Shown here piece by piece: positions 23,138-29,409 of a DNA stretch of 64,000 nucleotides. Each line of letters opens with the position of its first letter. Position 1 is the first letter of the stretch. The translations under genes were made by a program, and so were the position numbers. The stretch covers positions 62,001 to 126,000 of the forward strand of contig NZ_JAJFAV010000008.1 of the NCBI RefSeq assembly GCF_020711235.1, in the 5' to 3' direction. The notes under the pieces were generated by a model, which was given only the letters and a program-made list of their open reading frames with translations, was not told where the DNA came from and made no database searches. This DNA is from Hymenobacter sp. 15J16-1T3B (GTDB lineage: Bacteria > Bacteroidota > Bacteroidia > Cytophagales > Hymenobacteraceae).

Positions 23138-23165
23138 GTTACCTCGTTACAACACCGGAGAAGAA

Positions 23166-23273
23166 CGTCATGTCGAGCGAAGTCGAGACATCTCGCGGGC
23201 TGACACTGGGAAGCAATATCCTGCTGATTGGAATTACTACCGAGCAAGATGTCTCGACAAGCTCGACATGACG
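23166..23273. repeat. Dispersed inverted-repeat element (CGTCATGTCGAG type), copy 1
   Basis: The left end CGTCATGTCGAGCGAAGTCG, continuing to 23196, is nearly the reverse complement of the right end at 23244-23273. About 47 bp of unique sequence lies between them, giving a 108-bp palindromic element in a spacer. Short repeats of this GTCGAG-rich kind are scattered through many Bacteroidota genomes. The spacer after it (23290-23320) has TTTCACTTCACCTCACCAT, which resembles a decayed arm of the 8-mer elements. Confidence 0.75.
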
Positions 23274-23321
23274 GCCTGCAGTAGCTCGCCACTTTCACTT
23301 CACCTCACCATCTCGCCACCG

Positions 23322-24247: not shown

Positions 24248-25456
24248 ATGATTTTGCGCCTTGCCCATTTCTGCACCCTGCTGCTGCCCGGCACCTGCCT
24301 GCTGCTGCCCTCTTCCCAGTCAGGTGCCCAGCTGGGCGGCGAGGTGCTGGTGGTGCGGCACGGTGGCCGCTACACCGGGCGGTTTACCAGCCCCAACTCA
24401 GCCGTTCCCTGCGTGCTCATCAAAACTGCCGAGCCGGTGGTGCTGGACGGCTGCACACTGCACGGGGCCGGCGACTTGATTGTAGCCGAGCCCGGTGCGC
24501 GCCTGACTGTGCGCAACTGCCGTGGCTACGGCCTCACCCCGAGCGCCGACAACATCAGCCGGGGCCGCTTTCTGTCGGCCACCGAGGCCCGCAGCCTGCG
24601 CGTCGAGCACAATTACTTTGAGCACACCATCGGCATCCTGGTGTACCGCTGGGGCGGCGACGGCAGCGTCGCGCAAACCCTAACCGTGCGCTACAACCGC
24701 GTGCGCAACATCGACGGGCGCTACCGCAACGGCGAGGCCGACGCCACGGCCAGCTTTCTGGGGCTGAACCAAGTGCGCGGCGTGGCCGGCATCGACATCA
24801 GCTACAACGAAGTGGTGAACGAGCCCAACCAGTGCGCCACCGGCGACGTGGTGAACTTCTACAACTCCTCGGGTACCGCGCGCAGCCCTATCCGCTTTTT
24901 CCACAACTACATCCAGGGCGCCTACCCCTACCCCGCTACGGCGCCGCACTACACCGGCACCGGCCTGACCACCGACGGCGACGGGGTGTCGGCCCTGACC
25001 ACCACGGCTTACGTGGAGGCGGCCTACAACCAGATTGTGAGCACCTGCAACGCGGCCATGAACATTGCCGCCGGGCACCACAACCGGTTTCACCACAACC
25101 GTATGGTGACCAGCGGCCTGCTGCCCGACGGGCAAGTCCTGAAAGCGACGTACGCCGCCACGTCCATTTTCAACGCTTACCGCCAGCCCAAGACGGTGTT
25201 TTTCGGCAACCGCGTCGACCACAACGTCATCGGCTACGCCAAGCCCGGCTACCAGGTGCCCGCCGCCAACCGCCACGACCTGAGCAGCGGTAATTGCACC
25301 GGCTGCACCGACAACGAGCACCTGCCCAATCCCATTACCCTCGCTACCGAGCAGCAGGAGTGGCAGCGCTGGCAGCACAAGCTCCAGCGCCGGGGCATCC
25401 GCTTGCCGTCCGCCCAGGCAAGGCACCCCCCGTTTCGCCCCTTGGCCCAGCGTTAA
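24248..25456 (+). CDS. Secreted right-handed beta-helix protein
   Basis: A signal peptide (about residues 1-27, ending SGAQ) precedes a parallel beta-helix with Asn-rich turns such as VRYNRVRNIDGRY, ISYNEVVNEPN and FFHNYIQGAYPYP. It closely parallels the first 400 residues of the larger beta-helix/malectin protein encoded at 26179-29262. Shared stretches include VYRW, NFYN-SGTA, TTDGDG and MNIAAGH. Such folds occur in polysaccharide lyases, epimerases and depolymerases, but no catalytic residues are established here. Its location in the EPS operon suggests action on the secreted polymer. It ends about 125 bp before a strong terminator. Confidence 0.78.
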   Translation: MILRLAHFCTLLLPGTCLLLPSSQSGAQLGGEVLVVRHGGRYTGRFTSPNSAVPCVLIKTAEPVVLDGCTLHGAGDLIVAEPGARLTVRNCRGYGLTPSADNISRGRFLSATEARSLRVEHNYFEHTIGILVYRWGGDGSVAQTLTVRYNRVRNIDGRYRNGEADATASFLGLNQVRGVAGIDISYNEVVNEPNQCATGDVVNFYNSSGTARSPIRFFHNYIQGAYPYPATAPHYTGTGLTTDGDGVSALTTTAYVEAAYNQIVSTCNAAMNIAAGHHNRFHHNRMVTSGLLPDGQVLKATYAATSIFNAYRQPKTVFFGNRVDHNVIGYAKPGYQVPAANRHDLSSGNCTGCTDNEHLPNPITLATEQQEWQRWQHKLQRRGIRLPSAQARHPPFRPLAQR

Positions 25457-25579
25457 GAATTCATTCGCTGCGTGCCTCCGCTAAATAGCCGGGATGGTTA
25501 CGCAGTAGTTACCTGACTTACAGGAAGGTACTGCTGCTTCCCGCCGGACCGGTGGCCCAGCCAGCCGTAAGTACCTCCT

Positions 25580-25602
25580 AGCCTCCTTCGGGAGGCTTTT
25601 TT
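25580..25602 (+). terminator. Rho-independent terminator after the first beta-helix gene
   Basis: A perfect 7-bp stem (AGCCTCC / GGAGGCT) with the stable TTCG tetraloop is followed by six T residues. It should end the first EPS operon segment and make the second beta-helix gene depend on its own promoter. Confidence 0.9.
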
Positions 25603-25717
25603 GTGCCCATTCTGCGGTAGCCGTAAAAGATATCTGCAATTCAGGGCGCGCATTTCGAAGCACTATTTGATCAATTATATATTAATAAAACACAAATAAT
25701 GATTTTTTCAGCAAGTA

Positions 25718-25746
25718 TTGCCTTCTGACATTTTTTTATACATTTG
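25718..25746 (+). promoter_or_regulatory. Bacteroidota-type promoter of the beta-helix/malectin gene
   Basis: The -33 element TTG (25718-25720) is separated by 18 bp from TACATTTG (25739-25746), an exact match to the Bacteroidota -7 consensus TAnnTTTG. Transcription would start near 25752, giving a 5' leader of about 425 nt. Confidence 0.7.
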
Positions 25747-25874
25747 CAGTAAGCCGGCCCGAGATAAATTGAATTATTTCAATCTAACGAAGGCAGCTTA
25801 ACGCTCAAACGTCCGCTTATTTGCCGCGAAACGGCCTTTGCAGTTGGACTATGAGAACGGAGCGGCTCTCGGGG

Positions 25875-26075
25875 CCAGTGTGGTCAGAAGCTGAGTGATG
25901 TTGGACAAGCGCAGAAAGACAATGGCTTCATTTACTGCTGAAAAGCAACTTTTCAAGGTTCCTCCGGCCTAAGGCGTTCTGCGCCTAGGTCCGCTGCCCG
26001 ACACCGAGTCGGGCTGGCCTATCCCGGGAAACTCGCGCCGACACGGCGCAAAACGGGAACATCTGACCACTTTGG
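25875..26075 (+). ncRNA. Candidate structured leader RNA (unassigned)
   Basis: The segments 25875-25888 (CCAGTGTGGTCAGA) and 26062-26075 (TCTGACCACTTTGG) pair over 14 positions with one G-U and a single U-U mismatch, enclosing 173 nt. Inside are four local hairpins: TGAAAAG/CTTTTCA (25939-25955), CCTAAGGCG/GCGCCTAGG (25968-25989), GCCCGA/TCGGGC (25996-26014) and GCGCCG/CGGCGC (26035-26049). The last may be enclosed by TCCCG/CGGGA. This is a multi-branched fold in the long leader of the gene at 26179. It matches no riboswitch class I can recall in full. It could be a riboswitch-like leader or a separate small RNA. Confidence 0.5.
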
Positions 26076-26142
26076 GAATAATTGCACAAAAAAAATCAGC
26101 TCACCGGAACGGATTGACTTCTCATCCGGTTAAGCACTCAAC

Positions 26143-26160
26143 AAACCCTATATAGGGTTT
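26143..26160. promoter_or_regulatory. Perfect 18-nt palindrome before the start codon
   Basis: AAACCCTATATAGGGTTT is its own reverse complement and ends 18 nt before the ATG at 26179. In RNA it forms a 7-bp hairpin with an AUAU loop next to the ribosome-binding zone. In DNA it could be an operator. A second hairpin (ACCGGA / TCCGGT) lies just upstream near 26103-26131. Confidence 0.5.
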
Positions 26161-26178
26161 CTCATAAACAAAAACAGA

Positions 26179-29100
26179 ATGCAAAAAACCTCTGGAAACA
26201 TCCGGCCGCGGTTTGACCGTGAAATGTCCTCTGGTGCACGCTTTCTGCCGTTGGTGGCGCTCGTGCTGTTGGTAATGAACTTCCTGGCGCTGCCGCTCTC
26301 GGCCCAGAACGTTCCGAATGTGTCATTTCAAGGGCCCATCAACATTACTCAAGGCGGTACTTACACTGGTAACTACCGCAGCAATGACTCCAGTACTCCG
26401 GCCGTGACCATTAGTACCACGCAGCCGGTAGTGCTCCAAAACTGCATCATCGCCAGCGCCAGCGACCTGATCCGCGCGGGGGGCGGCAGCAACGTCACGA
26501 TTCGCAACAGCCAGGGCTACGGCCTGACGCCCACGATGGACAACGTGCCGCGCGGCCGCTTCATCGTCATCAGCGACGGACGCAATCTGGTGGTGGAAAA
26601 CAACTACCTCGACCACACCTGCGGCATCGTGGTGTACCGCTGGACGGGCAACGGCTCGACTTCGGAGACGGTGCGCGTGCGCTACAACCAAGCTACGAAC
26701 ATTGACGGGCGCTTCCGGAACCAGATTTCGGGCAGCGCGCAGGAATACAACGGCAGCTTCATCGGTTTCAACACCGTGCAGGGCGTAGCCAACATGGAGG
26801 TGGCCTTCAACCAGGTCATCAACACGCCCAACGAAAGCTCGACGGGTGACATCATTAACTTCTACAACGCCTCGGGCACGGCTTCGAGCCCGGTGCGGGT
26901 GCACGACAACTTCATCAAGGGCGCCTACCCCTACCCGGCTACCAGCACCAGCTACTCGGGCACGGGCATGACCACCGACGGGGACGGCTCCTCGCCGAGC
27001 ACGACCACGGCCTACGTGGAAGCGTACAACAACCAGTTCCTGGCCACCTCGAACGCGTCGATGAACATTGCCGCCGGCCACGACAACTACTACCACGACA
27101 ACCGTCTGATTACCAGCTCGTACTTCCCCGACGGCTCGCCGATGCGCGCCGTGTACGCCGCTACTTCGATCTTCAACTCCTACCAGATGCCGAGCAACGT
27201 GTTCTTCGGCAACCGCGTGGAGAACAACACCATCGGCTTCCGCAGCGTGGGCTACAACATTCCGTACCCCGACCGCCACGACCTGAGCTACGGCAACTGC
27301 ACCCCGTGCACGGGCACCACGCACCTGCCGAACCCCATCACCCTGGCCACCGAAGACAACGAGTTCGTGTTGTGGCAGCAGAAGCTGCAGCAGAACGGCA
27401 TCACCATCGGCGCCAGCGGCGTGAACCCCACCACGCCGTCGACCAGCCCCGGCTCCACCACGCCGACCACGCCGACCGCCCCCTCGACCGGCACCGGCAC
27501 CACGGGTAGCGGCAACACCGGCAGCACGCCGATGGCCGGCCCGAGCGGTTACACCTTCTTCCGCGGCCTGAACCTGAACGGCTCGGCCGTGACCCTGGAC
27601 GGCAACAACTGGGAAGCCGCTAGCGGCGCCGCCGGCGTATCTGTCAACGCCACGCCCTACTCGGCCCCTGCGGTGACCCTGACCCCGAACACCGACGCGG
27701 CCCGCGCCGACATGATTCGCAACTTCGTGTACGGTCGCAACGTGACGGCTTCGGTTGGCAACGTGGCCAACGGCACCTACGGCGTATACCTCTACGTGTG
27801 GGAAGACAACAACGCCGAAACCTACGACATCTCGGTGGAGGGCCAGACGGTGCGCACGGGCTTCAACAGCGGCGCCGCCGGCAGCTGGCAGCGCCTGGGT
27901 CCCTTCACGGCCAACGTGACCGACGGCACCATCTCGGTGGCTACCTCGGGCGGCGACGCCAACCTCTCGGGCATCGAAATCTGGAAGCAGAGCACGGTGG
28001 CCAACCAGAACCCGACCGTGACCCTGACGGCCGCCAGCACCGTGACGGTGAACACCGCCCTGGCCCTTTCGGCCACGGCCGCTGACGCCGACGGTAGCGT
28101 GGCCAAGGTGGAATTCTTCAACGGCACGACCAAGCTTGGCGAAGACACCTCGGCTCCCTTCACGCTGAGCTACACCCCCACGACCACCGGCACGCTGTCG
28201 CTGACGGCCAAGGCCACGGATAACGCCGGCGGCACCGCCACCTCGACGGCCGTGAGCGTAACGGTAGGCGCGGCTACGGTGGTTACCCCGCCCACCAGCG
28301 GCGGCACCACCGGTCCGACGGGCTACACCTTCTTCCGCGGCCTGAACGTGAACGGCTCGGCCATGACCCTGGACGGCAACACCTGGGAGGCTGGCAGCAA
28401 CGCCGCCAACGTGACTTACAGCGGCGGCTCGCCGCTGACGAGCACCGTGGCGCTGAACCCGAGCACCGACGCTTCGCGCACCGACCTGATCCGCTCCTTT
28501 ATCTGGGGCTACCACGTGACGGCTTCGGTGGGCAACGTGGCCAACGGCACCTACGCCGTGTACCTCTACGTGTTCGAAGACAACAACCCCGAAACCTACG
28601 ACATCTCGGTGGAGGGCCAGAAAGTGCGCACGGGCTTCAACAGCGGCTCGGCCGGTAGCTGGCAGCGCGTGGGCCCCTTCACGGCCAACGTGACCGACGG
28701 TAACGTTTCGGTGGACCTGCAGGGCGGCGCCGCCAACCTCTCGGGCATCGAAATCTGGAAGCAGAGCACGACGACCACCACCCCGACGACGCCTCCGACC
28801 ACCACGCCCACGACGAGCACGCTCTTCCGCGCCATCAACGTGAACGGCTCGGCCACGACCATCGACGGGCTGAACTTTGAGGCGGGCACTACCCCGGCCA
28901 ACGTCAGCACCAACGGCACGCGCCTCACCGCGCCCAACGTGACGCCGAACCCGGCCACCGACGCCGCCCGCACCGGCATGCTCCGCTCCTTCGTGTACGG
29001 CCAGAACCTGCGCTACAACGTGACGAACGTGCCCAACGGCACCTACGACGTGGCCTACTACTTCTTCGAAGACAACGCCGCGGAGACCTTCAGCGCGACG

Positions 29101-29262
29101 GTGAACGGGCAAGCGGTGCTGACCAACTACAACAGCGGCCCGGCCGGCACCTGGCGCAAGACCACCCCGGTTCGGGTGACGGTCAGCAACGGCCAGATCC
29201 TGCTGCAAACCAACGGCGGCTACGCCAACCTCTCGGGCCTAGAAATCTACAAGGTCCAGTAA
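26179..29262 (+). CDS. Secreted beta-helix protein with three malectin-like domains and one Ig-like domain
   Basis: The N-terminus has a signal peptide ending at LPLSAQN (about residue 43); a second ATG at 26224 is a possible start. Residues 50-410 form a right-handed beta-helix paralogous to the protein encoded at 24248-25456. After a Thr/Pro/Ser linker there are three malectin-like carbohydrate-binding domains (about 457-604, 715-862 and 880-1027). Each has FFRGLN or LFRAIN, then NGTY-V, EDN-ET and NLSGIEIW/NLSGLEIY. A bacterial Ig-like domain (about 608-697, with ALSATAADADGSVAKVEFF) sits between the first two. No type IX sorting tail is visible. The domain set suggests a polymer-binding or polymer-processing protein of the cell surface or matrix. 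The catalytic function is unproven. Confidence 0.82.
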   Translation: MQKTSGNIRPRFDREMSSGARFLPLVALVLLVMNFLALPLSAQNVPNVSFQGPINITQGGTYTGNYRSNDSSTPAVTISTTQPVVLQNCIIASASDLIRAGGGSNVTIRNSQGYGLTPTMDNVPRGRFIVISDGRNLVVENNYLDHTCGIVVYRWTGNGSTSETVRVRYNQATNIDGRFRNQISGSAQEYNGSFIGFNTVQGVANMEVAFNQVINTPNESSTGDIINFYNASGTASSPVRVHDNFIKGAYPYPATSTSYSGTGMTTDGDGSSPSTTTAYVEAYNNQFLATSNASMNIAAGHDNYYHDNRLITSSYFPDGSPMRAVYAATSIFNSYQMPSNVFFGNRVENNTIGFRSVGYNIPYPDRHDLSYGNCTPCTGTTHLPNPITLATEDNEFVLWQQKLQQNGITIGASGVNPTTPSTSPGSTTPTTPTAPSTGTGTTGSGNTGSTPMAGPSGYTFFRGLNLNGSAVTLDGNNWEAASGAAGVSVNATPYSAPAVTLTPNTDAARADMIRNFVYGRNVTASVGNVANGTYGVYLYVWEDNNAETYDISVEGQTVRTGFNSGAAGSWQRLGPFTANVTDGTISVATSGGDANLSGIEIWKQSTVANQNPTVTLTAASTVTVNTALALSATAADADGSVAKVEFFNGTTKLGEDTSAPFTLSYTPTTTGTLSLTAKATDNAGGTATSTAVSVTVGAATVVTPPTSGGTTGPTGYTFFRGLNVNGSAMTLDGNTWEAGSNAANVTYSGGSPLTSTVALNPSTDASRTDLIRSFIWGYHVTASVGNVANGTYAVYLYVFEDNNPETYDISVEGQKVRTGFNSGSAGSWQRVGPFTANVTDGNVSVDLQGGAANLSGIEIWKQSTTTTTPTTPPTTTPTTSTLFRAINVNGSATTIDGLNFEAGTTPANVSTNGTRLTAPNVTPNPATDAARTGMLRSFVYGQNLRYNVTNVPNGTYDVAYYFFEDNAAETFSATVNGQAVLTNYNSGPAGTWRKTTPVRVTVSNGQILLQTNGGYANLSGLEIYKVQ
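27547..27990 (+). repeat. In-gene tandem domain repeat, unit 1
   Basis: This segment encodes the first malectin-like domain. It is highly similar at DNA level to 28321-28765 (unit 2), including long exact stretches around the codons for YDISVEGQ and RTGFNSG. The third unit (28816-29262) is more divergent. The near-identity of units 1 and 2 points to a recent duplication. Confidence 0.75.
28321..28765 (+). repeat. In-gene tandem domain repeat, unit 2
   Basis: This segment encodes the second malectin-like domain and closely matches unit 1 at 27547-27990 in DNA sequence. It is separated from unit 1 by the Ig-like domain. Confidence 0.75.
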
Positions 29263-29382: not shown

Positions 29383-29409
29383 AGCCCGCCCCGTGGTGCG
29401 GGCTTTTTT
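29383..29409 (+). terminator. Second rho-independent terminator before gmd
   Basis: AGCCCGC and GCGGGCT form a 7-bp stem with an 8-nt loop, followed by six T residues. With the hairpin at 29284-29313 and a small GCCCC/GGGGC hairpin at 29324-29338, it isolates gmd from upstream transcription. The AT-rich stretch 29430-29560 that follows is the probable gmd promoter region. Confidence 0.85.

Follow-up and report, generated by a model that had tools for sequence, protein, structure and literature searches.

Positions 25752-26178 of the window, the 64,000-nucleotide stretch of Hymenobacter sp. 15J16-1T3B DNA analysed here, are probably the 5' leader of a single gene, designated bhL, and a divergent member of an unlisted family of structured, cis-acting leader RNAs in Hymenobacter and its close relatives. 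In our computations the RNA occurs once in each matching genome, in the same place between promoter and bhL and at near-constant length, and across the family three 5' helical domains are under compensatory selection. A conserved 3' block runs to the start codon and is clearly present in the window. We infer that the RNA acts in cis and sets the amount of the bhL protein, most likely after transcription start; cis action fits because the unit sits between terminator-like hairpins and the gene order is conserved. The features of the region are collected in Table 1.

Table 1. Features in and around the bhL leader (positions of the window)
Feature	Position	Strand	Remarks
Terminator-like hairpin + T-run	25580..25602	+	Follows the short beta-helix gene upstream; would insulate the leader unit
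Bacteroidetes-type promoter, TTG-18-TACATTTG	25718..25746	+	Read from the window sequence
Leader RNA, ~427 nt	25752..26178	+	Fold z -4.80; homologous leaders of near-constant length in relatives
Hairpin H1, ATTGAA/TTCAAT	25768..25783	+	Alifold of the window and two relatives; sequence invariant among them
Domain II, proposed P2/P3 counterpart	25804..25855	+	Three-sequence consensus fold; window folds
Hairpin H4, window counterpart of ~5 bp	25864..25876	+	Three-sequence consensus fold
Long-range helix 25875-25888/26062-26075 with four branches	25875..26075	+	Window fold; not conserved
Candidate small ORF MLDKRRKTMASFTAEKQLFKVPPA	25898..25972	+	24 codons; length shared by three genomes
Conserved 3' block AAUUGCACAAA...GGAACGGAUUGAC...CACAGA/AUG	26080..26178	+	R3 match
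Hairpin H6 AAACCCUauauAGGGUUU, 18 nt before the start codon	26143..26160	+	Core-pair variation in a chosen subset
bhL, secreted protein with Big_7 and malectin domains	26179..29262	+	Pfam; first 35 codons unusually conserved (DNA)
Terminator-like hairpin + T-run	29383..29409	+	After bhL

Promoter, leader and the fold of the leader

The consensus promoter claimed in the earlier note (TTG followed by 18 bp) is present in the window sequence, with TTG at 25718-25720, an 18-nt spacer and TACATTTG at 25739-25746. According to PMC9723704, the -7 consensus of Bacteroidetes-type promoters is TAnnTTTG. This box stands 440 nt before the MQK/MQN start in the window, in agreement with the distance of ~440 nt that characterizes the family. 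Because the promoter is conserved, a putative transcription start was placed near 25752, and the distance from the promoter to the bhL ATG (26179) gives a leader of ~427 nt, close to the ~425 nt predicted earlier. Pfam assigned Big_7 and Malectin to the bhL product, in which a long N-terminal extension precedes the signal segment. The word beta-helix is a name from the earlier note, and a Beta_helix match below the Pfam threshold lies in the short paralog upstream of bhL, not in bhL.

Comparison with dinucleotide shuffles, a check that had been proposed for this RNA, showed that the 427-nt leader is more stable than expected (z -4.80, 0/100 shuffles equally stable), and so is the fold of 25870-26080 (z -3.32, 1/200 as stable). 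A helix between 25875-25888 and 26062-26075 had been described as closing a multi-branch fold. It does pair in the window: of 14 positions, 13 are paired, and there is a single U-U mismatch and a single G-U pair; the four branches said to lie within it appear in the minimum-energy fold of 25870-26080, closed by that helix. In the nearest relatives, H. jeollabukensis and H. edaphi, whose leaders are 72-75% identical to the window's, the same columns pair at only 8/14 and 6/14 positions, which rules out the 14-position helix as a conserved core. Their whole leaders are no stabler than shuffles (z -0.1 and -0.9, 40 shuffles each). Two of the surviving pairs in the relatives are compensatory, so the helix may exist within the window's small group, but the RNA is not recognized by it. 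Of the proposal of a structured regulatory leader, the part that stands is that the leader is long, structured and conserved in relatives, while the closing helix fails as evidence for it. The structural evidence is instead different helices in the first 150 nt, plus the conserved 3' block. Picking a helix from a single sequence can thus mislead although the RNA itself is real.

Distribution of the leader family and its 5' helices

Relatives of bhL residues 1-411, with the short paralog counted, occur in 117 of 200 sampled Hymenobacteraceae genomes. Upstream regions were examined at 71 loci, comprising the first 30, 40 further stretches and L013. The gene starts with MQK or MQN at 42 of the 71, and a TAnnTTTG box, sought solely within 390-470 nt upstream of the bhL start, lies 426-443 nt upstream of the gene at 36 of these 42 (36/71 loci); homologous leaders, for which a search of related Hymenobacter had been advised, were found by this spacing. 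Thirty-three of the 36 leaders, with the box 434-443 nt before the start codon, were kept for alignment, and L061, L076 and L081 were dropped as poorly alignable, with outlier box distances of 426, 427 and 440 nt. The length of the leader is nearly fixed across relatives despite a sequence divergence close to the limit of alignability, and 24 of the 33 whole leaders have z below -2. The leaders were sorted by eye into groups A to F, between which the middle of the leader is unalignable.

Covariance model R1, built from 12 group A leaders, was run against 59 other sources and gave 21 matches at E below 0.01 (1.4e-16 to 9.3e-3), in groups B, C, D and F and in L049, L013, L028, L029, L031 and L037. 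Over 204 Hymenobacteraceae genomes it matched 32, at one place apiece; 31 of the 32 places are upstream of bhL, including a new one (L098, gene translated), and the remaining one is in G063 (E 0.00998). Model R2, built from 31 leaders, found L031, L013, L017 and L040 outside its training set (E 1.5e-10 to 5.1e-5), a set that held relatives of L017 and L031 and none close to L013 and L040. With R2, 22 of 61 named loci gave a match (E at most 0.0037), many of them genomes already counted, and the matches include H. gummosus (E 8.7e-8) and Solirubrum puertoriconensis. Among 390 genomes of the order, which cover part of Hymenobacteraceae, there were 16 hits in the family and a single weak one outside it (E 0.0032).

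For the window itself these models gave little: R1 found no match in it and none in its genome at E up to 1, the order-wide R2 search did not return it, and R2 run with filters off on 501 bases of it reached a weak 3.2 bits (E 0.32). Of the sister loci, L015 (H. jeollabukensis) was matched by R2 at E 0.0015 and L016 gave no hit. The consensus fold of the window and two relatives has an H1-like hairpin, domain II and an H4-like hairpin at matching places, and the window may keep the 5' domains in diverged form. Its 5' domain taken singly is no stabler than shuffles (z -0.99; L015 -0.36, L016 -1.70), and z was below -2 in 9 of 14 single folds of this part.

The three 5' domains (~150 nt) were drawn by eye and from group folds. 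The first, H1, is a two-storey hairpin that follows the transcription start directly; domain II comes next, a long hairpin made up of helices P2 and P3; H4 is the third. Domain II of the window pairs CUCA (25804-25807) with UGAG (25852-25855) and GUCC (25811-25814) with GGAC (25846-25849). Similar single folds with three domains, as judged by eye, arose unaided in several divergent members, e.g. L047, L080, L060, L049 and L025. In a structure-blind MAFFT alignment of the 12 group A leaders (A4), 85.2% of cells are paired, against 31-51% with the partner strand slid; two-sided changes occur in 14 pairs and 35 cells, where shuffles give 7.8 and 13.4, and 0/500 shuffles reach these values. The corresponding alignment of 33 leaders (A3, including those 12) has 63.6% of cells paired, with 27 such pairs against 22.5 and 136 cells against 68 (0/500). 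Further pair types are not raised in A4 or A3, being reached by 167 and 189 of 500 shuffles. The structure scored on A4 and A3 was drawn from some of the same sequences, which favours it over the slid versions, and shuffle counts overstate independence because the sequences share ancestry.

Model-fitted alignment gave 32 of 35 pairs and 213 cells changed on both sides, against 22.2 and 67 in shuffles, with a covariation of 0.41 against 0.17 shuffled and at most 0.12 slid; a fitted alignment with 31 rows gave 29 pairs and 182 cells against 21.1 and 59. Alignment A5 holds 36 rows, of which 35 are loci and the other is a spurious antisense row from L026, and A6 holds 31 rows at E <= 0.0003. Fitting leans towards the structure, so it is the unfitted A4 and A3 that carry weight. 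By helix, changes on both sides were seen in 8/8 outer pairs of H1 (model-fitted alignments), 8/8 pairs of P2 and 5/7 of P3 (fitted alignment), and 9/9 pairs of H4 in one fitted alignment and 8/9 in the other; P3 is the least regular helix, with 65.7% of cells paired. The covariation that had been suggested as a test of the leader is found in the family's 5' helices (14 pairs against 7.8, 0/500 shuffles in A4); the 25875/26062 helix is not conserved.

Several other approaches and candidate elements were set aside. For the full alignment, the result of a column-pair G-test (average-product correction applied) mainly reflected shared ancestry. RNAalifold, given the first 225 columns of 33 sequences, produced a weak consensus (-7.7), which we attribute to indels shifting the helices, and a covariance model was used instead. 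A long-range helix from the segment after H4 to the 3' block is clear in group A alone (mean -31.8 kcal/mol against -19.5 cross-group); groups B, C and D and three singletons self-pair worse than cross-group and E and F are ~1 kcal/mol better, and this helix is not claimed for the window. A hairpin with a self-complementary six-base loop, which would allow a kissing-loop dimer, occurs in 18 of 33 leaders against 13.0 shuffled, which is not significant. A GGCGCC loop is constant near position 255 on varying stems in nine leaders, all members of groups A and B (L047, L051, L075, L080, L022, L030, L033, L042 and L046).

The 3' block and the start of bhL

Model R3 uses sequence only and was built from the last 100 nt of 22 chosen leaders (A10), with the window's group deliberately left out. 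It matched 26080-26178 of the window at E 3.2e-10, and the match is the only hit in the whole genome (E 1.5e-8). The window thus belongs to the leader family clearly by its 3' end and weakly by its 5' domain. Of 18 given sources, 9 were matched by R3, and L028, L029, L031, L037, L040, L018, L061, L076 and L081 were not; the first five of these have a 5'-domain hit and lack the 3' block. Over 204 genomes R3 matched 40. Its best 34 places (E at most 1.5e-8) comprise the leaders of L098 and G115 and all of the 33 aligned ones except that of L040, and the best places end at the bhL start codon, within a few bases in G006 and G115. Weaker matches in G151, G153, G166 and G095 also lie just before bhL by coordinates; besides these there were weak hits in G106, G013 and at a second place in G003.

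Two kinds of loci depart from the common form. L054, L063, L064, L068, L069 and L071 have an MQK-starting bhL without a TAnnTTTG box at 390-470 nt upstream, and since five of these six genomes (not G217, that of L068) match R3, the leader there is probably shortened or altered. L028, L029, L031 and L037 carry the 5' domain in front of a bhL with a different N-terminus and no obvious ATG, and have no R3 match.

Within the 3' block, hairpin H6 has a core pair that is C-G, G-C or U-A and is paired in 12/12 rows of a subset that was picked for having that hairpin form, and in 14/30 overall; the outer pair 102/115 is paired in 4/12 only. Ahead of the start codon, groups D, E and F, L013 and L049 have a CCU strand paired with an AGG downstream of it, and in most group A folds the same strand pairs with an upstream GGA-type strand; L013 has both partners. 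These predicted alternatives suggest a switch beside the ribosome landing site.

The first 35 codons of bhL (26179-26283) are unusually constant at the DNA level. The window and L013 use the same codon at 22 of 23 shared residues, as do the window and L017 (again 22/23), against 95/142 and 109/157 further along the gene; the pair L013 and L017 agrees at 17/21 in this stretch and 106/166 further on. The bhL proteins compared at synonymous sites are 54-59% identical overall. The conservation of the first 35 codons suggests that an RNA- or DNA-level constraint reaches into the coding start.

Locus, known systems and rival explanations

On both sides the leader and bhL are flanked by terminator-like hairpins, and bhL therefore seems to be the only gene in the leader's unit. 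The count of terminator-like sites in 25300-26300 is not above chance (1 against 1.7 in shuffles). In scans without shuffle control, 18 of 33 leader loci have a hairpin with a T-run no more than 170 nt ahead of the promoter, and a terminator-like hairpin is present in the post-bhL gap in 9 of 10 neighbourhoods (absent in L182); a perfect TAnnTTTG box was found in 0/10 gaps after bhL. In 8 of 9 fetched neighbourhoods, bhL is followed on the same strand by matches to gmd, GT61 and GT2, with none downstream in L181, and a GDP-fucose-synthase-like match is listed in 6 of 9. In L181 (L028, G143), the one neighbourhood fetched from the subgroup with the different bhL N-terminus, there is no gmd block after bhL. 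The window locus has a strong gmd match and a GDP-L-fucose synthase-like gene at 484.9 bits, just under the 500-bit cut-off; by Pfam/NCBIfam the neighbours are gmd, GDP-fucose synthase-like, GT61, GT2 and Wzy_C. Neighbour domains and synteny place the leader in an exopolysaccharide locus, a position shared with epsC/EAR elements, and the locus is most likely a fucose-polymer locus with bhL inside it.

The statement that no Rfam family fits, and the search recommended to check it, agree with what was found: cmscan against Rfam 15 returned nothing at gathering scores in the window or in 20 related loci. At relaxed scores there were 2 matches in the leader and 7 in nine loci, all far below gathering. 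RF01735 (epsC/EAR) is not among the matches listed for the window, the leader or the related loci, and the same searches gave no match to known riboswitch aptamer models. Beyond the gut Bacteroidales, Bacteroidota are not known to have many structured regulatory RNAs.

JUMPstart lies upstream of surface-polysaccharide genes and has a role there, and the autoregulatory protein-binding leaders of the ribosomal-protein type combine one RNA per gene with a narrow taxonomic spread. The Hymenobacter leader resembles the former as an RNA element upstream of surface-polysaccharide genes, and the latter in having one RNA, one gene and a narrow spread. It differs from the ribosomal-protein type in that its target is a secreted protein and its protein partner is putative. 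JUMPstart (RF01707) appears as a named RNA element of gammaproteobacteria in a table of PMC2864571. The Hymenobacter leader gave no match to it and is multi-domain and much longer. The same source (PMC2864571) describes the epsC motif or EAR RNA (RF01735) of Bacillales as a structured 5' leader element at an exopolysaccharide locus, which is where the likeness lies; the Hymenobacter leader has no RF01735 match, belongs to another phylum and seemingly serves a single-gene unit between terminator-like hairpins. The wcaG and manA motifs (PMC2864571) likewise belong to 5' leaders, there of genes for exopolysaccharide and mannose; they stand ahead of more than one kind of gene and have cyanophages among their hosts, unlike the Hymenobacter leader with one gene, one family and no match. 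The kind of element, a structured leader RNA at a surface-polymer locus, is thus already known from epsC, JUMPstart and wcaG, whereas the bhL-leader family gave no Rfam 15 family in these scans and is probably new. We found nothing on a Hymenobacter bhL leader in PMC full text among the part of the matches that was listed.

EAR RNA causes read-through of downstream terminators, and by analogy the bhL leader might work by processive antitermination, with an RNA-modified polymerase reading through the post-bhL terminator into gmd, fcl and the glycosyltransferases. The leader does head a conserved block in which gmd, GT61 and GT2 follow bhL (8/9 neighbourhoods), and the gaps after bhL usually have a terminator-like hairpin (9/10) and no perfect promoter box (0/10). 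However, these gaps of 243-476 nt could house imperfect promoters, and a conserved block that reaches the bhL start codon and the first codons points to an effect on bhL itself, so we regard read-through as rather unlikely. A metabolite riboswitch, sensing for instance a nucleotide sugar such as GDP-fucose or a second messenger, would account for the complex 5' domain with its covariation and for the alternative hairpin that may form downstream of it, close to the start codon, and the locus has gmd and a GDP-L-fucose synthase-like gene (484.9 bits, cut-off 500). We hold it to be unlikely: in the searches made, the RNA goes with one gene, in one copy per genome and one bacterial family, its helices vary freely, no large strictly conserved unpaired core was identified, and the known aptamer classes in Rfam gave no match. 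Such a distribution (one gene, one copy per genome and one family, a few weak hits aside) suits an autoregulatory leader, or a cis-regulator devoted to a single gene, no less well than a metabolite sensor.

That the region is a chance-stable untranslated stretch without RNA function appears quite improbable. It would be in keeping with the z of -0.99 for the window's 5' domain and of -0.1 and -0.9 for the sisters' leaders, and with the failure of the 5' models to find the window (R1 none, R2 E 0.32), but it leaves out the family-wide covariation, the near-constant length, the association with one gene and the clear match of the window to R3 (E 1.5e-8). Very improbable, in our judgement, is attenuation through a leader peptide. 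In the window and its relatives H. jeollabukensis and H. edaphi, the 24-codon ORF at 25898-25972 has equal length and an in-frame stop, but scanning the remaining 30 leaders gave no equivalent (3/33 carry it), and the changes among the three ORFs have no clear coding signature by hand count. Small ORFs were accordingly rejected as a conserved element of the family, the 24-codon one being kept solely by the window's group.

For the preferred reading, a cis-acting leader that sets the amount of bhL protein, the mechanism could run as follows. The signal bound by the 5' domains would be a small molecule or a protein, the latter perhaps bhL itself or part of the polymer-assembly machinery, and binding would change the pairing of the 3' block. 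The CCU strand would then have two possible partners, one upstream and the other the AGG that directly precedes the start codon, and the altered pairing would change the access of ribosomes or RNase. A bolder version, doubtful as it stands, places the leader of ~430 nt in a new class of signal-responsive RNA that would monitor polymer assembly, through the secretion machinery, a nucleotide sugar or a second messenger, and would switch the start-codon hairpin of a gene for a large secreted protein bound to the polymer; the RNA element would then extend over the first 35 codons. If so, control of an extracellular polymer protein would be tied to a dedicated RNA, and Rfam would gain a family. The leader is long, covaries well within the family and is tied to one gene, and because it occurs in named, sequenced strains, it is directly testable.

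Elsewhere in the window, a large inverted repeat, TGTCGAGCGAAGTCGAGACATCTCGC ... GATGTCTCGACAAGCTCGACATGACG, lies at 23160-23275 between two glycosyltransferase genes and looks by eye like a mobile or REP-type element.
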